64,000 nt of DNA from Pseudobacteriovorax sp. (lineage in GTDB: Bacteria > Bdellovibrionota_B > Oligoflexia > Oligoflexales > Oligoflexaceae). Shown in pieces: positions 12,388 to 26,116 of this stretch. Under the pieces are notes generated by a model. It worked only from the letters and a program-made list of their open reading frames with translations, was not told the origin of the DNA and did not search any database. The translations under genes and the position numbers were made by a program. Each line of letters starts with the position of its first letter. Within the stretch, counting starts at the first letter, position 1. Where the stretch lies: positions 1 to 64,000 of the forward strand of contig JABSRP010000012.1 of NCBI GenBank assembly GCA_013215145.1, given 5' to 3'.

Positions 12388-13467
12388 TTGTCAACGGACA
12401 CAGAGACATCGATGAGAGTTTTGATCGTAGAAAGTTCGAATACGAACAAGCATCTTAGTTCTGTATTTTCCCCACATACTAAGTATAGCGCAGAAAACGG
12501 GTTCGGGATAACTTGCGTATTTAAGTCTGCCTCAAGTTTTGCTGAAGCTATCAATCATTTCCAAGATATGCATCCTGATCTAATTGTGATCGAATTAGGG
12601 GCAAATTTGACTGAAGCTTGCGAGTTCGCCAAGTTGATTAGAGTCGAGGAAGATCAACGCCATACAGGGATCATCTTTCTCCAAGGTAATCAAGCCATGT
12701 CCGAGCAGCTCCCTGCGATTTGTTTAGAGGCCGGAGGGGATGAATTTATTGAGAGCAAAGCCTCAGATCGGGAAGTTTATGCCCGGGTGAGTTCTGCCTA
12801 TCGATACAAGATCATGACGGACAAACTAAGGTCGGCAAATCATCGATTGAAGGAATTGTCTCTGACAGACGAACTCACAGGGCTTCATAACATGCGTTCG
12901 TTTAATAAAAAGTATCGGCAGATATTGAAGTCCGCACAAGAGTTGCAAAAAGGCTTTGGAATCATCATGCTAGATTTGGACCATTTCAAGTCTATAAACG
13001 ACACCACAAATCACCTGATGGGAAGTTTTGTGATTGGTGAGGTCGGACGTCTTATAAAAGAAGAGGTCGCTTCTATTCAGGATAGCGTCCCAGCTCGATA
13101 CGGCGGTGATGAGTATGTGATCTGCTTACCCTCTGATGATCCACAAGAGGTCATGGCTGTGGGGCAATCGATTTGCAACCGCATTCGGCTTCATGGCTTT
13201 AATCATGATGGGTTTTTAGTATCAGTAACCGCGAGTATCGGTCTTTCCTGGGTTCCCATGGGCTTTAAAGGACTGGCTGATGATCCTTTGAAGGGTGCTG
13301 ATCTTATGCTCTATAAGAGCAAAGACCAGGGCCGTAATTGTGTTAATGGGATGATGTTAAGGGATTCTATTGATCTTAACCATGTTAGTGGGCTTCATTT
13401 GATTGATGGGAATCCCAGCGGTAATCACAACAACGTCGTCGCTATCAACAACCTTAAGGTCTTTTAA
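12388..13467 (+). CDS. Degenerate receiver domain plus GGDEF diguanylate cyclase
   Basis: Residues about 9-130 look like a response-regulator receiver in which the acidic pair and phospho-acceptor are altered: VESS replaces the usual acidic pair and IELG puts Glu where the phosphorylated Asp should be. Residues about 155-320 are a GGDEF domain (LTDELTGLHN, MLDLDHFKSIND, GGDEY), so c-di-GMP synthesis is likely. The RxxD inhibitory site is absent before GGDEY. The start is TTG 12388, 7 bases after GGAGGG. The last 37 codons overlap the end of pyk on the other strand and may be a non-conserved extension. Confidence 0.9.
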   Translation: MSTDTETSMRVLIVESSNTNKHLSSVFSPHTKYSAENGFGITCVFKSASSFAEAINHFQDMHPDLIVIELGANLTEACEFAKLIRVEEDQRHTGIIFLQGNQAMSEQLPAICLEAGGDEFIESKASDREVYARVSSAYRYKIMTDKLRSANHRLKELSLTDELTGLHNMRSFNKKYRQILKSAQELQKGFGIIMLDLDHFKSINDTTNHLMGSFVIGEVGRLIKEEVASIQDSVPARYGGDEYVICLPSDDPQEVMAVGQSICNRIRLHGFNHDGFLVSVTASIGLSWVPMGFKGLADDPLKGADLMLYKSKDQGRNCVNGMMLRDSIDLNHVSGLHLIDGNPSGNHNNVVAINNLKVF

Positions 13468-14904: not shown

Positions 14905-15028
14905 AGTAAAGAGTGAATCAAATCAGTTTTCTTAAGTTCACGTCTTTGCTACCGATGAGTAGATCACGTTCTACAGCAAAATTTTGTTTTGAACATGCGT
15001 ATACTTCGTCACTTTGTTGAGGGTAGGC

Positions 15029-18000
15029 TTGTCGAGAAGTAGCAAACTTATTGGTGCTATTATCGCTGATCGGTATTGTATCACTGGAGAAATTGGCTCT
15101 GGTGGTATGGGTAAAGTCTATCGCGCGATTCCTTTCGACGATCCTTCCCAAAATGTCGCGATTAAGGTCATTCTTCGCAATCGTCAACTGAATTACGAAG
15201 ATATGCTAAGATTCCAACGCGAAGCTGCCCTGATGAGCCGCCTTCACCATCCAAATATCATTTCGTTTCACGAGCTTGGCTTGATAGAAGCGGGTGAGGT
15301 TAAAGGGCTATCCGGCGGGTATTACATCGTCATGGAAATTGCCAGGGGCGAGGATCTTAAGCAGGTCCTAAAAAAAGGTCGAAAAGGACTAGACTTTTTT
15401 TTCCAGCTTGGTCTGCAGGTCACGTCTGCCTTGGAATATACCCATAGCAAAAATATTATTCATCGGGATATCAAGCCGCAAAATATTATAGTTGGCAACA
15501 CTTGGGATGACGATGATCAGGAGAACGAGGAATTGATTGTCAAAGTCCTCGATTTCGGGATTGCCCAGCTGACAGAGATCTCGGATTCAGAATTAGGTTC
15601 AAAAGATGTGGCGGGTACCCCTCTTTATATGGCTCCTGAAACCTCGGGGTACACCACAGCAGCTGTCGACCACAGGTCTGATCTTTACGCTCTTGGCTGC
15701 GTCTTATACGAGTCTTTGGCAGGTCATCCGCCTTTTACAGCAAATACCCGGGAAAAACTGGCTAGAGAACACGCCCAGACACTTCCCGAGCCACTGACCC
15801 AAATCCGGCCTGAAATCCCAAAGTTTGTGAATGATATCGTTTCCAAACTCCTTGCCAAAGACCCTGATGATCGTTATCAAACTGCCTTCGGACTGCAAGT
15901 GGATCTCCAAAATGCCCGACGTTGTATTGAGCAGGATAAAGATTTTTTTGTCGAATCTAAAGAGCTAGCCAGCTACGACAAGCTACGCATCATGACTGGT
16001 AGCCTAGATTTGGTTGGTCGAAATAATGAGTTTGAAATCCTATCGGACAACTACGGAGAAATTGCAAAAGGCCGTGGTCGGAGTCGACTGACAGTTGTAC
16101 GAGGAGGGGCAGGCACAGGGAAGTCACGGCTCCTTATCGAGTTTAAGTCCTATCTTTCCAAACATAAGATTCGATATATTTCTACATCTTTCTCCCGCCA
16201 TGAAAACAACCTACCCTTTAATGCACTAGCTAATGGTTTTAATGAATATCTCATACGAGTCTTTAAAACTCAGCAGGTGGAAACCGACGAGATAAAACGG
16301 AAGGTCAAGACTCTACTGGGGCCTACGGTTCAACTAGTGGCAAAAGTTGTCCCTGGTTTAAAGCCGTATATTGATGAGGAAGACCAGCAGCTCGACCTGG
16401 ATAATCATGACGAAATAGATAGTAAGATCGATTTTGCTGAATTTGCTAAAGCATTTTCTGATTTCACACGTTGCTTGACGACGGAAAATCATCCTATTGT
16501 TTTTATCTTTGATGATATGCACTGGGCAGATCAAAAGAGTATTGAGCTTGTTGATAAATTCTTCTCTCACAATAACTCACAAAGATTCTACCTCATCATC
16601 GGGTATAGACCTGAGGAGATACAAGGAAACTTAGAGTTTGACAAGTTTTTGCGAAAATTCGAAAAGTTGCGCCGTCGCTATTCTCAGATAGAGCTTGGCC
16701 CCCTCGAAGGTAATGATATATCAGAACTCACTATGCAGATGTTGAATACTGAACAACAGTTGGATCCCGAGTTTGTTGGGTATCTTGCCGAAAAAACTAA
16801 AGGAAATCCGCTGTTTTTGGTTGAGTTTGTCAGAAGTCTGATTACCAAAGACTTTCTATTCTTCAATCGTAATGAGAAGATTTGGGAGTACGATCTTAAA
16901 ACGATAAAATATACCAACATTCTTCTCGACTCTATTGATCTCACCCTCAATCGAGCGACTCAATACGAGGGTGCAGACCGTGCGGTTCTAGAGGTAGCCT
17001 CAATTCTTGGCACGAGCTTCAACTTTGAAATGCTACTAATTGACGAAAGCTTTCCTTCTATTGCTGTTCTGAGATCTTTACAAAAGGCCATGACCGATTA
17101 CTTGATTGTTCGGTCCACTGATGTAGTCGATTTGAAACACCTCGGAAAAGCTTTCGCGTTTTCTCACTCACGCATTAGAGACTCGATTAGGGATGCGATA
17201 AGTCCTGAAAGACAGAGACAACTTCATAGGAAAATCGCCTATAAATTGCAGAATTTAGTTCCCAAACCAAGTACTCAAATGGTTTTTACCTTTGCCCATC
17301 ATTTTGTTCAGTCATTGCATTTCGAACAGAGACGTTTGGTTGATGTCGATATGAAACTAGTGATGTTGGCACTGAAGTACAGTATTGTCGCGGGCGAAGA
17401 GGCGTTTAAAATCGGAGCTTTAGTTTCAGCTGAGAGATACTACAGAAATGCGTATGGCATCTTTCCAGCTCTCACCGAAAAAGAAACCTTAGCTACTAAG
17501 AAATACGTTCTTAATAAGCTTGGCGATATTTTGGGTCGACGTAAACAGTACACTTCGGCTTCGCGCTTTTATCAGGAATTACTAGTTCTTGAACCAACCC
17601 GAGCGGAATACGCTTCTATCTCATATAATCTCAATTACTTTGGAATGCTGAATGGTAAAGTTTCGGAGACTATAAAACAGCTATCAAAGGTTTACCGTAG
17701 ACTCAAAATGGAAGTTCCTTTTTGGAATCGGAGCGTTGCCTTTTATTTATATCTACGGATTTTTGATATCCTGGTCTTTAAAAAGTCTAGTAAAGTATTC
17801 CGTCGCTTTACCACCGTATACTCAGCTTTAAAAGTTCGGAAATACTCCCGTGAAGAGTCATTTCATCCTGTTAAGCTCTATCATTTAGGACAAACAATAA
17901 GCCTTAATTACGATTTCAAGGAAGCCGTTGCATACCACTGTGAAGCACTAAAAATGTGCCTTGCAGGTTATGCTACACCGGATGCGATTTTGAGAACTCT

Positions 18001-20485
18001 GGGTGATCATGCTGTTATCATCGGTTACTTGGGTTTCCGTAAGACAGCTTACTTTTTGCTTGATACGGTATTGTTGAGTGCTCGAGAGCTTGGCTTTAAA
18101 CAAAGTTTTGGGTATCTGCTTGTTCAAAGAACCTTAACTCTAGACCACCTACAAGGAAAATTCGAAGATTATAAACAAAATATGAACACAGCCTTATCGA
18201 ACCTAACCTTCGAGCAGAATCAGCAGCTAATTGTTCAAGGCATCGTGTTTCAATTGTACCAGGCACTTATTGAATGTGATCAGCAAACGATTCGAAGCTT
18301 AATGCGTCTATTGCCCGTACACTTGCGCACCAGGCACTGGTTGAGTCCAAGGGCCATTAGTATCTACATCTTTTCACTTTTGCTTCAAGATTCACGAGAA
18401 CAAATTGTGTTGCATCGATCATATTTACGAAGACGAGAACAGGTAGGATCACGGAAGGCTGGCCTTTACGTCTCAATGATTGAAGCTATGATCAATTTTG
18501 CTGCCGGAGAACCCGAAAAAGCATTTGCGAACTACCTGCAAGTACTCAATAACTATCATGCTAAGCAGTCGCGTTTTCTCTATCCCTTCGAAGAGGACTT
18601 TGCTTTGCTGTTTATCGTGTTTTTTCCCGCTGTTATTCAGCACGAGTATCGATTTTTTCAGTTGAATCTACGAGGCGTTAAAGAAGTCTTTCAACGAATT
18701 TATGAGAGAGTGCAAAAAGATGATTTCTCGAGGCGCGCTGTTCCTGTCCTTGTCGTAGCTAGAATTGAGGAGCTGTTTGGTCTAAAAAATATCAAATCCA
18801 GATACGATGCCTCAATGAAAGCTGGACGCTTTACGCGATCTACTTTGGTTGAATTGATGACTCACTTTTGGTTTGGAAAATTCTTGTTAGGTGAGAAGCA
18901 ACATCATCGCAGAGAATACATCTACCATATGCTAAAAGCCTCCAAGGAGAGAGGACTTTCATTATTAGAAGGTATGGCTGTTGGGCTATTGGAGGAGTAT
19001 AGATTCCCTATACCTGAAACCGCCAGAAAAAAATCTGCATCGGAGCCCACTTATGAGTTTAGCCTGCTTCTTACAGATGCGTTAAATTTGACTCATAAAG
19101 TCTTCAGTGATCGTATTTCTCAGGTCCAAGGGCTCAGCTCGATGCTACGTCTCTTACGGAAAAGCTACCGTTACGATTCCGTTCATATCGTTTTGGGTGA
19201 TCATTTAACCCATAAGAAATCTCGGCCTTTCTCAAGCGAAAGGAGAGACCCAGAAACCTATCTGAAAATTATAAATTACGTTAAGAGTTATTTTACGATT
19301 CGCTCGGCACTCTTCATTCCGGAGGGGGATGCTCCTTGGAATAAGTCTGAGGGGGAGGCTACTTCCACGTCCAATGAGATGATGCCTGAAGAGGATGCGA
19401 ACCTACAGAATCCCGAAGAAAATATCGATTTGGAAATGACAGCCAAACTGGATGAGGATGATGATTTACAGTCTACGTTAATCCTTGAGGGAACCTTGCC
19501 TAATGGTGGCGACGTTGATCTTGGTGAGGCGCCACGGGTTCGAAAACGATCGACAGATTCTCGCTCACCTGGTTTGAATACCATTATTCCGATGAAGGAT
19601 AATGGAACCAACATTGGAGTTGTTCTGTTAGAGAAGGTCGAAATTGCCGGCGGCGACTCAGCTCAAGCACGCACCGATCTAGACTATTTCGGTGCCTACT
19701 TGGGTCTTTGGCTTCGATATTCGGGTATGGCAGGACAAAGTAGTCCACCTAGTCGATATCGCTACGAGTCTGGTGGACACTATATGGAAGATTGTTCATG
19801 GCTTCATGTTTGGCCGGAAGGGAATCTGAGAGCTCGACGGGAATCTACTTGGTACTTGGGACTTGCGACGTCTGAGGAAGACTATCTGGTCATCTATTGC
19901 CGTCTCAATGGCCCTGAGCTTGACCGAGAGTCCGTAAGCTCTCACCTTTGGTTCCACTTAATCGGAGTCCGTAGTCTTATCGTTTCGAAAAGTAAGGCAG
20001 GCGTCTCATGGGAAGACATCTATGAAGAAATGATGAAAGTCTTAACAAATGGGACTCACGTTAAGCGCTTGGAGGGCGTAGCTCTTTCCTTCAGTCTGTT
20101 TAATCGAAAAAAGAAGTCCGTGATTAGTGGACATTTTGGACCATCAAGGCCGGTTGTGATTGGAGCCGAAAATGAAATTATCCCTCAGAATAAGGCAGTG
20201 ATGACTTTAGGCCATGGGCGGGCGCTCCGCTTCTGGAAAGTTGTGGTAGAAAACGGCGAGCAAGGCGTGTTTATTCAAACACATGACTCGAGTATATTAG
20301 ATAGCCTCAACATTAGGTCGTTGCGTCAATCGGATTTTTTCCGTGGTTCAAAGGAACATAAAAGGAAAACATTTTCCATTTATTTAAAACAGTTGCTTGT
20401 CGAGGGACATGTTCCGCGATATTTTGTAGCGGCAGTGTTTGCCGACCCTTTTGCTAAATTGCAGGCTTTAGAAAAGGCAGAATGA
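15029..20485 (+). CDS. Giant Ser/Thr kinase - AAA ATPase - TPR - GAF - SpoIIE-like protein
   Basis: A single protein of about 1818 residues. Residues about 8-290 are a complete Hanks-type kinase (GSGGMGKVY, VAIK, HRDIKPQN, DFGIA, APE). A STAND/AAA-like ATPase follows, with Walker A GGAGTGKS near 360 and Walker B FDDMHWAD near 495. Residues about 760-1300 are helical and TPR-like. A region near 1360-1580 looks like a GAF domain interrupted by a very acidic linker. The last 220 residues follow the SpoIIE/PP2C pattern (GGHYMED, ALSFSLFNR, GHFGPSRP, TLGHGRAL, QTHDSS), but the metal-binding aspartates appear lost. I start at TTG 15029, after GAGGG; TTG 15014 is the alternative. It is probably a cytoplasmic integrator; its signal is unknown. 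Confidence 0.88.
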   Translation: MSRSSKLIGAIIADRYCITGEIGSGGMGKVYRAIPFDDPSQNVAIKVILRNRQLNYEDMLRFQREAALMSRLHHPNIISFHELGLIEAGEVKGLSGGYYIVMEIARGEDLKQVLKKGRKGLDFFFQLGLQVTSALEYTHSKNIIHRDIKPQNIIVGNTWDDDDQENEELIVKVLDFGIAQLTEISDSELGSKDVAGTPLYMAPETSGYTTAAVDHRSDLYALGCVLYESLAGHPPFTANTREKLAREHAQTLPEPLTQIRPEIPKFVNDIVSKLLAKDPDDRYQTAFGLQVDLQNARRCIEQDKDFFVESKELASYDKLRIMTGSLDLVGRNNEFEILSDNYGEIAKGRGRSRLTVVRGGAGTGKSRLLIEFKSYLSKHKIRYISTSFSRHENNLPFNALANGFNEYLIRVFKTQQVETDEIKRKVKTLLGPTVQLVAKVVPGLKPYIDEEDQQLDLDNHDEIDSKIDFAEFAKAFSDFTRCLTTENHPIVFIFDDMHWADQKSIELVDKFFSHNNSQRFYLIIGYRPEEIQGNLEFDKFLRKFEKLRRRYSQIELGPLEGNDISELTMQMLNTEQQLDPEFVGYLAEKTKGNPLFLVEFVRSLITKDFLFFNRNEKIWEYDLKTIKYTNILLDSIDLTLNRATQYEGADRAVLEVASILGTSFNFEMLLIDESFPSIAVLRSLQKAMTDYLIVRSTDVVDLKHLGKAFAFSHSRIRDSIRDAISPERQRQLHRKIAYKLQNLVPKPSTQMVFTFAHHFVQSLHFEQRRLVDVDMKLVMLALKYSIVAGEEAFKIGALVSAERYYRNAYGIFPALTEKETLATKKYVLNKLGDILGRRKQYTSASRFYQELLVLEPTRAEYASISYNLNYFGMLNGKVSETIKQLSKVYRRLKMEVPFWNRSVAFYLYLRIFDILVFKKSSKVFRRFTTVYSALKVRKYSREESFHPVKLYHLGQTISLNYDFKEAVAYHCEALKMCLAGYATPDAILRTLGDHAVIIGYLGFRKTAYFLLDTVLLSARELGFKQSFGYLLVQRTLTLDHLQGKFEDYKQNMNTALSNLTFEQNQQLIVQGIVFQLYQALIECDQQTIRSLMRLLPVHLRTRHWLSPRAISIYIFSLLLQDSREQIVLHRSYLRRREQVGSRKAGLYVSMIEAMINFAAGEPEKAFANYLQVLNNYHAKQSRFLYPFEEDFALLFIVFFPAVIQHEYRFFQLNLRGVKEVFQRIYERVQKDDFSRRAVPVLVVARIEELFGLKNIKSRYDASMKAGRFTRSTLVELMTHFWFGKFLLGEKQHHRREYIYHMLKASKERGLSLLEGMAVGLLEEYRFPIPETARKKSASEPTYEFSLLLTDALNLTHKVFSDRISQVQGLSSMLRLLRKSYRYDSVHIVLGDHLTHKKSRPFSSERRDPETYLKIINYVKSYFTIRSALFIPEGDAPWNKSEGEATSTSNEMMPEEDANLQNPEENIDLEMTAKLDEDDDLQSTLILEGTLPNGGDVDLGEAPRVRKRSTDSRSPGLNTIIPMKDNGTNIGVVLLEKVEIAGGDSAQARTDLDYFGAYLGLWLRYSGMAGQSSPPSRYRYESGGHYMEDCSWLHVWPEGNLRARRESTWYLGLATSEEDYLVIYCRLNGPELDRESVSSHLWFHLIGVRSLIVSKSKAGVSWEDIYEEMMKVLTNGTHVKRLEGVALSFSLFNRKKKSVISGHFGPSRPVVIGAENEIIPQNKAVMTLGHGRALRFWKVVVENGEQGVFIQTHDSSILDSLNIRSLRQSDFFRGSKEHKRKTFSIYLKQLLVEGHVPRYFVAAVFADPFAKLQALEKAE

Positions 20486-20562: not shown

Positions 20563-20757
20563 ATGGGTTTACCCGGCGTTCCAGAAATGTTGATTATCGG
20601 TGGTGTAATTGTTCTTCTTTTTGGCGCATCTAAGTTGCCAAAATTAGGTGGTGCGATCGGTGAAAGTATTAAAAACTTTAAAAAAGGGGTTAACGACGAC
20701 AGCCCAAAGATCACCGAAGAATCTGAAAAAAAGAAAGATGGGTCGTCCGATACATAA
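20563..20757 (+). CDS. tatA: Sec-independent translocase subunit TatA
   Basis: A 64-residue TatA/E-type protein. It has the short N-terminal membrane helix (MLIIGGVIVLLFGASKLP), the conserved FGASKLP hinge, an amphipathic helix (IGESIKNFKKG) and a charged tail. TatA oligomers form the membrane pathway for folded twin-arginine substrates. AGGAG lies 9 bases before ATG 20563. No tatB or tatC is in the window, so the other components must be elsewhere. It precedes the ArsA-like pair by 212 bases. Confidence 0.93.
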   Translation: MGLPGVPEMLIIGGVIVLLFGASKLPKLGGAIGESIKNFKKGVNDDSPKITEESEKKKDGSSDT

Positions 20758-20969: not shown

Positions 20970-21902
20970 TTGAATTTTCTGAATAACATTCTGAAACGCA
21001 AAGTCATTTTAATCACCGGCAAAGGCGGGATTGGAAAGACTACCGTCGCTGCTGGCCTAGCTCAGTATGCGGCTGCCCAGGGAAAGAAAGTCTGTCTAGT
21101 AGAATCTAGCAGTCGCGATCAACTCTCTCCCTTATTTGGCGTTGACGCCGTTGGGCACAATCTTTCAGAACTACAAAAAAATATTTTTGCGATCAATCTC
21201 AAACCTGCAGAAAATTTTCGTGATTTTGTGACGATACATCTTGGTTTTGCAAAACTTTTCGAAAGAGTGTTTACGAAGGCAATCGTACAAAGTTTTATCA
21301 AAATGCTCCCGGGTGTCGCCGAACTCACACTTCTTGGTAGGCTTTTCTATTTTAGCGAACTTGAGAAGGATCAATCCTTTGATTTGATCATTTTTGATGG
21401 TTTTGCCTCTGGTCATTTTTTAAGTTTATTGAAAACACCAGATGCCGTTTTGAATTCGGGCATGGTTGGCCCCATTATCAAAGAAACCCAGCGTGTTCGA
21501 GATTTTCTACTCGACCCACAGAGAGTGGCTACTGTCATTGTAACTATGGCAGAGAAGATTGTTATGAAGGAAGCCGTAGACTTCGCCGTTCGATTGGAAA
21601 AAGAGGTTGGTGCTGGACCTCAGGCTGTTATCGTCAATCGCTGCCTACCATCGACCCTAGACCAGCCATCAAGCGAAATTATTGAGGATAACAGTCTGGA
21701 TCAGAATCAAGCTTGGCAATATCTCAAGCTTAGACAAGATATGGAATATGCGGCGGTAAAAAGTCTTAGCAAAGCCTTGTCAGACTCCCAATATCACAGT
21801 GAGACTGCCGTCACTCTCATGCCAGATATTGGTTGGGTAACAGAGCCACTGGCCGATAATTTTGCCGAGACCTGGTTTGCTGCGGCGAAGGAGGCCCACT
21901 AG
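20970..21902 (+). CDS. ArsA/Get3-like ATPase, first of a pair
   Basis: A 310-residue P-loop ATPase of the ArsA/Get3 (SIMIBI) group. The deviant Walker A reads GKGGIGKTT and includes the signature lysine that contacts ATP across a dimer interface. FDGFASGHFLSLL stands where Get3 has its switch II DTAPTGH. Family members insert tail-anchored proteins or power arsenite efflux, but in bacteria most have no assigned role; there is no arsB or arsR here. The start is TTG 20970 behind TGGAGAA. The stop overlaps the GTG of the second ATPase by one base, so the two are made together. Confidence 0.85.
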   Translation: MNFLNNILKRKVILITGKGGIGKTTVAAGLAQYAAAQGKKVCLVESSSRDQLSPLFGVDAVGHNLSELQKNIFAINLKPAENFRDFVTIHLGFAKLFERVFTKAIVQSFIKMLPGVAELTLLGRLFYFSELEKDQSFDLIIFDGFASGHFLSLLKTPDAVLNSGMVGPIIKETQRVRDFLLDPQRVATVIVTMAEKIVMKEAVDFAVRLEKEVGAGPQAVIVNRCLPSTLDQPSSEIIEDNSLDQNQAWQYLKLRQDMEYAAVKSLSKALSDSQYHSETAVTLMPDIGWVTEPLADNFAETWFAAAKEAH

Positions 21903-23014
21903 TGAGTGATGATGCGGCAAACTCTTTTGCCAGAGATTTGATAGCGAAACACCGAGTCATAGTCGCTGTTGGTTCTGGTGGGGTTGGAAAGACAACAACA
22001 TCAGCCGCTTTGGCAACACTTGGGGCTAAGATGGGCCGAAAAGTTGCTCTGATCAGTATCGATCCGGCCAAACGCCTTGCCGATGCCATGGGAATCTCCT
22101 TAGGTAGCACCTTTAGTAAGGTTGAGTTTCCTGAAAATTTGGAGGTTTCAGGCAGTGTTTTCGGAGCGATGCTGGACCAAAAGGCGGTATTTGATGAGAT
22201 GGTCCAGAAGTGGGCGAAATCCGATAAAGTCAGAGAGAAAATCTACGCTAACAGTATTTATCAGGCTGTGTCTGAGAATTTGGGAGGGCCACTTGAATAT
22301 ATGGCGCTAGCAAAACTTCACGCTATATCTGAGGACTCAACATTCGATCTCATCATCGTTGATACTCCCCCTGATACCCACGCCTTGGATTTTTTGGATA
22401 GGCCAAACGCTCTCGCAGGCTTTATGGAGAGAGGTGTGATGACATGGTTGATCAAACCGTTTCACATTGCACAAAAACTTGGAGCGGGAAGGATCATTAG
22501 GGCAGGCGGTAAAATGATGTCAGGCATCGCTGCGGTCACTGGAGTCAAAATGCTGCAGATGTTAGCTGAGTTTCTTATCTTAATAGAGGATGTGATTAAG
22601 GGATTTAGCGAGTCTGGTAAAGAAGTTGTTAAACTACTTCATCAAAAAGATACCAGCTTCGCCCTTGTCACAACGGCTCAGAACTCCTCGCTACGTTCAA
22701 CCAAGATGCTTGCGCAAGAGCTGCAAGCGAAAAACTTTTCTTTGGGTGCTGTTTTTATTAATCGGTGTTTTCCAGAAGAGCTTTTGAAACATATCGAGAC
22801 CGCTCTAAACCAGTCATCGGATGACACCCGTTATAGTCACCACGATCTAGAGATTCTAGCTAAAAAAGGTTATAGTATAGAAGCTAATGTCAAGAGTTTG
22901 GGCCCAATTTTGCATGCTCATGGATTTGGTGATGTGCCCGTTGGCAAGGTTAGCGAACGTAAGGAAAACATTCATACCCTGGAATCCTTGGCGCGCTTTG
23001 CTGATGATCTTTAG
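21902..23014 (+). CDS. ArsA/Get3-like ATPase, second of a pair
   Basis: A 370-residue paralogue of its neighbour. Walker A reads GSGGVGKTTT, with Ser in place of the signature lysine. SIDPAKRLADAMG and DTPPDTHALDFL match the switch I and switch II regions of Get3 (DPAHS, DTAPTGH). The pair differs at a key intersubunit residue, so an asymmetric heterodimer is a fair inference. GTG 21902 is preceded by AAGGAGG at ideal spacing. The gene is followed by mlaE after 42 bases, and the direction and spacing suggest one operon with the lipid transporter. Confidence 0.87.
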   Translation: MSDDAANSFARDLIAKHRVIVAVGSGGVGKTTTSAALATLGAKMGRKVALISIDPAKRLADAMGISLGSTFSKVEFPENLEVSGSVFGAMLDQKAVFDEMVQKWAKSDKVREKIYANSIYQAVSENLGGPLEYMALAKLHAISEDSTFDLIIVDTPPDTHALDFLDRPNALAGFMERGVMTWLIKPFHIAQKLGAGRIIRAGGKMMSGIAAVTGVKMLQMLAEFLILIEDVIKGFSESGKEVVKLLHQKDTSFALVTTAQNSSLRSTKMLAQELQAKNFSLGAVFINRCFPEELLKHIETALNQSSDDTRYSHHDLEILAKKGYSIEANVKSLGPILHAHGFGDVPVGKVSERKENIHTLESLARFADDL

Positions 23015-23056: not shown

Positions 23057-23818
23057 GTGAAGAGCGGTAGTTTTATTCTAAGTCGTATCCAATCCTTCGG
23101 CGCGAGTTTTGTGTTTTTGGGGAAAGTACTAAAATGCCTGGTACGACCGCCATTCCGCATTCAATTGATCTTGCAGCAAATGGAGTTCATCGGAAACAAA
23201 TCATTCATGATTGTTCTTATCTGTGGCTTTTTTATTGGTGCAGCGGTAAGCCTCCAGGTGGGAACTATATTTGTCATATTCGGTGCAGAAGGCATGCTGG
23301 GGGCGGCGAATGGCAAGGCCCTTTCGAGGGAGTTAAGCCCCTTAATCACTGGCTTCTTATTAGCTGGAAGAGCGGGCGCCGCGATCACGGCAGAAATTGC
23401 GTCGATGAAAGTGAACGAGCAAATCGATGCTATGGAGGCCATGGCGGTCGACCCTATTGACTATCTAGTCGTTCCAAGGCTTATCGCAGGAGTCGTCATG
23501 CTGCCGATGCTTGTGGGAATTTTTAACCTTGTGGGACAAATTGCTTCAGTCATTGTTGGCGTTATGATTTTTGACATCGATCAAGGGGCTTTTTTTCAGA
23601 AAATGACCACGATTGTAACGCCTGAAGATATTTGGAGTGGGCTGCAAAAAGCTGTTATTTTTGGGGGCATCATCAGTTTGTTCTCCTGTAAGTTTGGGTT
23701 AGAGGCTTCCGGTGGGGCCAAGGGTGTGGGTGTGGCGACGACGACTTCTGTAGTCACGATTCTCCTAATTCTGCTTTTTGTCGATTTTGGAATCACTTAT
23801 ATTCAGATTGCGTTGTAG
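23057..23818 (+). CDS. mlaE: MlaE-type lipid ABC transporter permease
   Basis: The membrane subunit of an MCE-type ABC transporter that moves phospholipids between inner and outer membrane. It is 253 residues with five or six hydrophobic segments and the family signature LSRELSPLITGFLLAGRAGA, followed by ITAEIASMKVNEQIDAMEAM. Start choice is uncertain: GTG 23057 lies about 20 bases after the strong site GGAGGACGG, with no better in-frame ATG, GTG or TTG between. mlaF begins 2 bases after its stop. Confidence 0.93.
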   Translation: MKSGSFILSRIQSFGASFVFLGKVLKCLVRPPFRIQLILQQMEFIGNKSFMIVLICGFFIGAAVSLQVGTIFVIFGAEGMLGAANGKALSRELSPLITGFLLAGRAGAAITAEIASMKVNEQIDAMEAMAVDPIDYLVVPRLIAGVVMLPMLVGIFNLVGQIASVIVGVMIFDIDQGAFFQKMTTIVTPEDIWSGLQKAVIFGGIISLFSCKFGLEASGGAKGVGVATTTSVVTILLILLFVDFGITYIQIAL

Positions 23819-23819
23819 T

Positions 23820-24569
23820 ATGATCCGTTTTGAAAACGTAGTGAAGCAGTTTGGAACTAATCGGGTATTGGATGGCCTAGACCTAGAAATCCCCGAGGGG
23901 AAAATCACAGTAATTATAGGTAAGTCTGGTGAAGGCAAGTCGGTTACTATTAAGCACATTATGGGGCTTTTGACCCCAACATCAGGACGAGTTTTTGTCG
24001 ATGATCGGGACTTGAGTACCTTTAGTTTCGAGCAGTTGATGGACTTAAGGCGTTCTATAGGAATGCTTTTTCAACATGCTGCGTTGTTCGACAGTCTTTC
24101 CGTTTTCGAGAATGTCGCCTTTCCTTTAAAAGAGAGGAGATCGATGAAGGAGAGTGATATTAAAAAGCGCGTTTTTGAAGTTTTGGACCAAATCGGATTA
24201 CCTGATATTGCTGATAAATTCCCAGGTGAACTGTCCACCGGAGAGAAAAAACGTGTGGGGCTCGCCCGAGCTTTGTCGCCAAATCCTCGGATTATCATGT
24301 ATGACGAACCCACAACTGGGATGGATCCGTTAGTCTCGGAAATGATAGACAACTTAATCGTCGATGTGGGGCGCTGGAACCCAGAATTAACCAGCATAGT
24401 CATTTCCCATGACCTAAAAGCGGCATTGGAGACAGCAGAAAATGTTGTGATGCTTTACAAGGGAAAAGTTCAGCTTGCGGGTGCGCCAGACAAGTTTCGC
24501 AAGGTAGATGACCCGATTATCCGTCAGTTTTTTGCAGGAAAGGTCGAGGGACCTATGGAATTTATGTGA
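23820..24569 (+). CDS. mlaF: MlaF-type lipid ABC transporter ATPase
   Basis: The ATPase that drives the MlaE permease. It is 249 residues, with Walker A GKSGEGKS, the ABC signature LSTGEKKRVGLARAL, Walker B IIMYDEPTTGMDP and switch His in ISHD. In family members the Gly-to-Glu change in the P-loop (SGEGKS) is common. ATG 23820 lies 2 bases after the mlaE stop; a longer reading from 23778 would sit inside mlaE. Confidence 0.94.
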   Translation: MIRFENVVKQFGTNRVLDGLDLEIPEGKITVIIGKSGEGKSVTIKHIMGLLTPTSGRVFVDDRDLSTFSFEQLMDLRRSIGMLFQHAALFDSLSVFENVAFPLKERRSMKESDIKKRVFEVLDQIGLPDIADKFPGELSTGEKKRVGLARALSPNPRIIMYDEPTTGMDPLVSEMIDNLIVDVGRWNPELTSIVISHDLKAALETAENVVMLYKGKVQLAGAPDKFRKVDDPIIRQFFAGKVEGPMEFM

Positions 24570-24673: not shown

Positions 24674-26116
24674 ATGAGCAGCAAATCATTAGAATATCGC
24701 GTCGGACTCTTTAGCCTATTTGGGGTTGCGACCACTGTTCTAGCCATTTTTGTGTTGTCGCCTGATATGTTCAGCAGAAAAGAGCAGATCAACTACCACA
24801 CGGTTTTGAAAGATGCCACAGGTATACTCGAAAAGACACACGTGAAAACTAATGGTGTCACAGTAGGTAAGGTACGCAAAATTTCATTGAGTAGAGATGC
24901 CACTCGAGTTGATTTTCAAGTGGATAAGGAAGTGTTTATTCCTGAAGGCTCAAAAATTATCGTTCGAACGGTTGGGTTCTTGGGCGATAAGTTTATCGAG
25001 ATCAAGCGACCCAGTAACGTCGAGAATGGCGTTGGGCCAAACGGGTTTATTCCACAAGCAACGGATGCTGCCGACCTCCAAGAGGTCATCTCTTTGGTCG
25101 GTTCGATTGCAGAAGACATCAAGAAAGTAACCACGAATCTTTCAAGTGTTCTCGGCGATAGTCAGGGCGAGAGGACCATGGCAAATATTGTCGATAATAT
25201 CGAGCAATTTACCAAGGATGCTAGAGGTATCCTTGAAGATAATCGGGAGGATGTACGCACACTTGTTGCCAATATCAGAGATTTCTCAGACTCGATGAAA
25301 GAGGTTATGAATGATGAGAACAAAGAGAGGATCGATCGGATTCTAGCCAATTTTGACACTTCCATGGAAGACGTCAGGGGAGCGACGAAAAACATAAATC
25401 TCATTTCCGAAAAGGTCGAAAAAGGCGAGGGTACCTTAGGTAAGCTGATCAACGAAGACGATGCCTTAATCGAGATCGAAGGCGCACTTAAAGACCTCCG
25501 TAAAGTCCTCGCTCCTGTGACGAAAATGGAAATTGCTGTGGATACTCACTCCTTCATACGTCGCGATGAGTCATCTCAAACCTATTTTAATTTGGTTTTT
25601 CGTACCCGGCCGGACGCCTATTACATCATAGGGTTTACAGACTTTGCCGAAAGGACACTGGACACGACCACCGAAACCATAGATGGCGATAACAGTGATG
25701 GTACCGTGCGGAGCCGTGAAACGATAGTTGAGAACAAAGAACTCCGCTTCAACCTGCAGCTAGGCAAACGTTGGGGATGGATTGGGGCTAGATTAGGGAT
25801 GTTTGAATCGTCAGGAGGTGTTGCCGGTGACATGTTCTTTTTCAAGGATAGGTTCCGAGTCTCCCTCGAAGTATTTGATTTTGCTGACAAAGATAGCGAA
25901 ATCCGGAAAACGGCTCATATAAAAGCCTATGCATCTGTACTTTTCTTCAATCATCTCTATGCCTTAATAGGTGTTGATGATCCCACACGCCTAGACCCAG
26001 AAACGGGAAAAGTTGATAAAGATATCAATCATTACCTCGGAGCTGGATTAACCTTTACAGATCAAGACCTTAAGGCGCTCTTTGGAATGGCGGCCGTGGC
26101 TGCAGGTGGTCCATAA
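24674..26116 (+). CDS. MCE (MlaD-like) substrate-binding protein with long C-terminal region
   Basis: A 480-residue MCE protein anchored by one N-terminal helix (about 9-28, LFSLFGVATTVLAIFVLS). The MCE domain spans about 38-125 (LKDATGILEKTHVKTNGVTVG, FIPEGSKIIVRTVGFLGDKF). A coiled, helix-prone stretch follows at 130-290. The last 190 residues alternate polar and hydrophobic residues with many aromatics (YFNLVFRTR, RFNLQLGKRWGWIGARLG, ASVLFFNHLYALIG), resembling outer-membrane beta-strands. It is roughly three times the length of E. coli MlaD. The gene follows mlaF by 104 bases and should work with it in lipid transport. Confidence 0.9.
   Translation: MSSKSLEYRVGLFSLFGVATTVLAIFVLSPDMFSRKEQINYHTVLKDATGILEKTHVKTNGVTVGKVRKISLSRDATRVDFQVDKEVFIPEGSKIIVRTVGFLGDKFIEIKRPSNVENGVGPNGFIPQATDAADLQEVISLVGSIAEDIKKVTTNLSSVLGDSQGERTMANIVDNIEQFTKDARGILEDNREDVRTLVANIRDFSDSMKEVMNDENKERIDRILANFDTSMEDVRGATKNINLISEKVEKGEGTLGKLINEDDALIEIEGALKDLRKVLAPVTKMEIAVDTHSFIRRDESSQTYFNLVFRTRPDAYYIIGFTDFAERTLDTTTETIDGDNSDGTVRSRETIVENKELRFNLQLGKRWGWIGARLGMFESSGGVAGDMFFFKDRFRVSLEVFDFADKDSEIRKTAHIKAYASVLFFNHLYALIGVDDPTRLDPETGKVDKDINHYLGAGLTFTDQDLKALFGMAAVAAGGP

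Follow-up and report, generated by a model that had tools for sequence, protein, structure and literature searches.

The locus described here raises the question of whether a protein that begins with a complete Ser/Thr kinase really ends in a PP2C-type phosphatase domain and, if it does, whether that domain can still work as an enzyme. The locus lies in the window, by which we mean the whole stretch of 64,000 nucleotides that was analysed. In the window, positions 15014-20485 (plus strand) form a single uninterrupted open reading frame of 1823 codons. An earlier note on this DNA had given the frame as 15029-20485. The open frame is real and starts with the TTG codon at 15014; the TTG codon at 15029 is a possible alternative start. 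The parts of the protein are as follows.

15014-20485, plus strand: the entire kinase / AAA_16 / helical-TPR / GAF-like / PP2C-like protein, 1823 aa, TTG start
15083-15880, plus strand: Hanks-type Ser/Thr kinase domain, residues 24-289 (Pfam PF00069, E = 2.6e-46)
16010-16594, plus strand: AAA_16 P-loop ATPase, residues 333-527 (PF13191, E = 4.3e-20)
16811-19003, plus strand: helical region with a weak TPR signal, residues about 600-1330
19046-19723, plus strand: putative GAF-like stretch, residues about 1345-1570
19766-20443, plus strand: predicted pseudophosphatase tail of the PP2C/SpoIIE fold, residues about 1585-1810 (AlphaFold2 and Foldseek)

Orthologues that span the full length were found through the order Oligoflexales. 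They share 27-57% identity with the window protein, and the domain order is identical in all of them, always in a single polypeptide. We aligned 32 orthologues and read the metal positions of the tail in a core set of 23.

The complete Hanks-type kinase proposed for the front of the protein and the ATPase proposed for its middle are both borne out by the profile matches listed above. The kinase contains the glycine loop, the VAIK lysine, HRDxKxxN, DFG, and APE, and its residues K51, D152, N157, D180, and E209 are invariant in 32/32 orthologues. The ATPase carries a Walker A motif (GGAGTGKS) and a Walker B motif (FIFDD), the first Asp of the latter being replaced by His in five orthologues of the alignment. 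The TPR part is less firm. In the window protein, the Pfam profile TPR_2 matches near residue 832 with E = 0.0016, which is below the cut-off, whereas TPR_12 is matched at 5.6e-5 in orthologue L067. As for the GAF domain that had been proposed, Pfam gave no GAF match for the window protein, nor for any of five orthologues that were searched, and what stands is a GAF-like stretch. This assignment is drawn from its position, from the 'IPMKDNGTNIGVVLLEK' stretch, and from the Pfam GAF matches of two paralogues (L009 and L010) at the equivalent place. In the window protein, the stretch is interrupted by a long acidic insert, which is poorly conserved.

Sequence profiles do not recognize the tail. 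No Pfam or NCBIfam profile matched it, and the SpoIIE profile PF07228 gave no match at E ≤ 1 in the window tail or in any of the 25 orthologue tails. When the tail family was compared by hhalign with eight intact SpoIIE domains of its own genome, neither the local nor the global mode returned a usable alignment (probability 0.3%), and the tail profile found only chance matches among the PDB sequences. The predicted structure is more informative. An AlphaFold2 model made from the alignment of 25 orthologous tails (pLDDT 88.8, pTM 0.85) is a beta-sandwich with flanking helices, and as the best 50 Foldseek matches among 350,542 PDB chains are all PP2C-fold, the PP2C/SpoIIE fold of the tail is confirmed by predicted structure. 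The best matches are B. subtilis SpoIIE (5mqh, 5e-4), P. aeruginosa RssB, RsbU of Rv1364c, and RsbX; tPphA and TAB1 are also among the PP2C matches, and the credible matches in a library of viral structures are likewise PP2C. Judged from the modest Foldseek E-value (5e-4, as compared to 3e-15 for the intact SpoIIE domain of paralogue L009), the modelled tail is a very remote PP2C relative. The PP2C-like C-terminus of the earlier note thus holds, on the strength of AlphaFold2 and Foldseek and not of sequence profiles.

The tail model pairs element by element, and in order, with the AlphaFold2 model of the L009 SpoIIE domain. It includes a helix pair (73-97 and 104-117 in tail numbering), a candidate equivalent of the switch helices in the SpoIIE phosphatase core. 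The long linker helix of the paralogue model (H2-27) is missing from the tail model, and no SpoIIE switch-helix linker was recognized ahead of the tail. The element-by-element agreement bears on the idea that the tail is no PP2C homologue but an alpha/beta sandwich that arose by convergence and is grouped with PP2C by Foldseek on overall topology. The failure of the profile searches and TM-scores of only 0.4-0.5 to the PDB PP2C matches would suit convergence, which we nevertheless regard as improbable: all of the 50 best matches share the PP2C fold, the paralogues have SpoIIE at the equivalent place, and the strand order, the helix pair, and the in-register residues W1613, G1633, GH1706-1707, and D1758 agree with SpoIIE.

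We mapped the metal positions by strand register and common landmark residues against the L009 model, not by superposition. The landmarks in register with SpoIIE are W1613 (GGDW), G1633 (xGHG), SGH 1705-1707 (AGH), and D1758 (TDG). In B. subtilis SpoIIE, the metal residues are D628, D746, and D795 (PMC5468089). The four positions in the tail are given below.

T1612 (19847-19849, plus strand): This is the place of the GGD Asp (metal Asp 1), which is lost. The adjacent W1613 aligns with the Trp of GGDW. The core orthologues have S, A, V, T, G, or L at this position.

R1630 (19901-19903, plus strand): The bridging Asp of GDVxGHG (metal Asp 2, D628 in SpoIIE) is lost, with G1633 aligned to the Gly of xGHG. 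Three divergent orthologues (L057, L059, and L060) have Asp at this position in a weak alignment, which would fit a stepwise loss from an active ancestor.

D1758 (20285-20287, plus strand): The TDG Asp (metal Asp 3, D746 in SpoIIE) is kept. It sits two residues after the strand end in both AlphaFold2 models. The earlier claim that this Asp is replaced is wrong: D1758 aligns with it and is Asp in 20/23 core orthologues.

R1802 (20417-20419, plus strand): The Arg of PRY replaces the Asp of the C-terminal DD (metal Asp 4, D795 in SpoIIE), as placed by the register of the strand start. It is Arg in 21/23 core orthologues.

Three of the four metal aspartates of an active PP2C (those in GGD, GDVxGHG, TDG, and DD) are hence gone from the tail, and positions 1, 2, and 4 are acidic in none of the 23 core orthologues. 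As no core orthologue retains the bridging Asp, a two-metal centre should not form, and the reading of the tail as a degenerate SpoIIE/PP2C domain, i.e., a pseudophosphatase, stands. Its details had to be corrected in part. The motif equivalents in the tail are ESTW 1610-1613 (for GGDW), CRLNG 1629-1633 (for GDVxG), SGHFGPSRP (for AGHPPP), and QTHDSS (for YTDG). Two of the five motifs proposed earlier were misassigned: GGHYMED is poorly conserved and sits at the tail start, the real equivalent being ESTW, and TLGHGRAL lies past the AGH-equivalent loop; neither of them is a PP2C motif. GHFGPSRP was identified correctly, and QTHDSS was put in the right place, but its Asp is not lost. Accordingly, the expected absence of metal ligands applies to Asp 1, 2, and 4 in 23/23 core orthologues but not to Asp 3.

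H1707 of the AGH-type motif is kept in 21/23 core orthologues, D1758 and R1802 occur jointly in 19/23, and the motifs SGHFGxxRP and PRYY are invariant. In active enzymes, the residues in the places of D1758 and R1802 hold a single metal between them, and a salt bridge between D1758 and R1802 may replace this metal. Conservation of D1758, H1707, and R1802/Y1803 around the old site could also point to an enzyme with a rebuilt centre, either a single-metal or metal-free phosphatase or another hydrolase. We give this explanation little credit, as the bridging and the GGD Asp are lost, uncompensated, in every core orthologue.

A contig scan with a tail profile (a 10-row subset of the tail alignment) detected the tail in 30/43 Oligoflexales genomes, with one copy per genome and always within the kinase reading frame. 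The named tail-bearing relatives include Oligoflexales and Oligoflexus MAGs. No tail was detected elsewhere in the phylum or in the remaining genomes of the 383-genome sample. Genomes of group f12, which belong to another order of the same class, also encode a kinase-ATPase orthologue, the tail of which has diverged too far to be picked up by the profile. Across 22 orthologues, nearly every comparison with the window protein gave a higher similarity in the PP2C-like segment than in the TPR and GAF-like parts. Given that the dead tail is kept across the whole order, its role is probably docking or regulation rather than catalysis. Precedents are E. coli RssB and TAB1, which are pseudo-PP2C proteins with a PP2C domain that docks or adapts (PMC5468089).

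On balance, we favor a signalling hub with an active Ser/Thr kinase under the control of the AAA_16 part and a helical/GAF-like sensor, and with a dead PP2C adaptor or docking domain at its end. Signals received by the helical/GAF-like region and by the ATPase would set the kinase. The tail would bind a protein instead of dephosphorylating it, as the PP2C domains of RssB and TAB1 do, and thereby may bring a substrate to the kinase or may switch or clamp the kinase as the sensor part dictates. It is conceivable, though we consider it rather doubtful, that the tail is an intramolecular regulator with no outside docking partner, which binds the autophosphorylated segment of its own kinase or the ATPase and so locks the kinase in the off (or on) state pending release by the sensor part. 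The fixed order of domains in one polypeptide, the single copy in each genome, and the two invariant motifs are in line with such a regulator.

The same genome (G000) holds about 16 SpoIIE domains over the cut-off and also paralogues of the window protein. L009 (G000:C107, 4120-9300, minus strand) consists of a kinase remnant, AAA_16, a weak GAF match, and an intact SpoIIE domain; the remnant is devoid of the VAIK Lys, and HGRVSPGH replaces HRDIKPQN. L068 (G000:C69, 431-6358, plus strand) has a kinase remnant and AAA_16 and ends in Hpt and a histidine-kinase-type ATPase (HATPase). Up to the output domain, the paralogues L009, L010, and L068 (kinase-AAA_16-TPR-GAF-SpoIIE or kinase-AAA_16-GAF-Hpt-HATPase) have a domain order like that of the window protein. 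Their output domains are intact, and L009 and L068 have only kinase remnants, whereas in the window protein it is the kinase that is intact and the output domain that is dead. Within a shared architecture, degeneration has thus struck the output enzyme in one case and the input enzyme in others. Separately, a 249-aa frame (L011, G000:C34:81500-84500), about 62 kb from the kinase gene, matches only part of the SpoIIE profile (positions 104-174), and weakly (23 bits), and is possibly a second degenerate PP2C.

We next describe the neighboring genes. A divergent pyruvate kinase gene lies upstream of the kinase frame; its frame is overlapped on the opposite strand, by about 110 bases, by the 3' end of a GGDEF diguanylate cyclase frame (12388-13467, plus strand). 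Downstream, the following genes were found.

20563-20757, plus strand: tatA, the next gene, 64 aa (TIGR01411, above cut-off)
20970-21902, plus strand: first ArsA/Get3-like ATPase (PF02374)
21902-23014, plus strand: second ArsA/Get3-like ATPase (PF02374)
23057-23818, plus strand: MlaE-type lipid transport permease (PF02405, E = 4e-71)
23778-24569, plus strand: MlaF-type ABC ATPase (PF00005)
24674-26116, plus strand: MlaD/Mce-type substrate-binding protein (PF02470)

Most orthologous loci have a TatA-like frame at the equivalent position. Among 26 genomes that encode the kinase as well as the first ArsA-like ATPase, the two genes are less than 2 kb apart in 22; the four exceptions (G021, G028, G031, and G034) are all of one genus. 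In G022, the kinase directly precedes MlaE, and ArsA is missing. Since the kinase gene usually precedes tatA, the two ArsA-like genes, and MlaE-MlaF-MlaD, the target of the kinase may lie in the lipid transport of the envelope or in the targeting of membrane proteins; we take this as a lead only. The ArsA-Mla cluster itself is conserved in the class irrespective of the kinase (it is kinase-free in f11 and f12 genomes); hence, the kinase is accessory to it at most. A literature search for the ArsA-Mla pairing found no paper. We put forward only tentatively that the tails form a so far undescribed, PP2C-derived pseudophosphatase family confined to Oligoflexales, the substrate-docking arm of an active kinase that controls an Mla-type lipid transporter with TatA/ArsA partners. 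If this is true, a bacterial kinase has recruited the phosphatase that would oppose it as a targeting subunit.

STAS proteins are the substrates of SpoIIE, and MlaB is a STAS protein as well. Docking of the tail to a STAS protein was considered and is not supported: the genome has no STAS_2 match, and none of its three PF01740 (STAS) matches is near the kinase cluster. Most SpoIIE phosphatases of this genome are hence without an evident STAS partner.

Pseudo-PP2C adaptors and multidomain kinases are each already known. The pairing of an active kinase with a dead PP2C, and the tail family itself, were not found in the profile libraries or the literature searched. In bacteria, pseudophosphatases seem to be much less well documented than pseudokinases are. 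The present protein joins a dead PP2C to the enzyme of opposite function; selection has maintained this domain across an order, although the profile libraries searched do not recognize it. The mirror image, a dead kinase with an intact phosphatase (L009), is encoded in the same genome. The protein provides a defined case for the study of pseudo-PP2C function and a candidate regulator of Mla-type lipid transport.

Among known systems, the TOMM system kinase/cyclase fusion (TIGR03903) resembles the protein in its central AAA/helical part, which is matched by residues 316-790; the NCBIfam match reaches 204 of 706 bits, far under the cut-off, and TIGR03903 has no PP2C tail. With the SpoIIE/RsbU-type PP2C domains (PF07228; B. 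subtilis SpoIIE and Rv1364c RsbU), the tail shares the predicted fold, the order of strands and helices, the AGH loop, the TDG Asp, and the C-terminal place after a GAF-like stretch, but it differs by the absence of a profile match, the bridging Asp, the GGD Asp, and the C-terminal DD, and no switch-helix linker was recognized. Like the putative role of the tail, the main role of the PP2C domain of RssB, the sigma-S adaptor, is protein docking and not catalysis (PMC5468089). RssB is a receiver-domain protein and has neither kinase nor ATPase. In the composite PP2C-kinase proteins of Pseudomonas, the PP2C is N-terminal and treated as a phosphatase domain, and an ATPase/TPR/GAF part is not described; as in the window protein, PP2C and Hanks-type kinase are joined in one polypeptide (PMC1262709).
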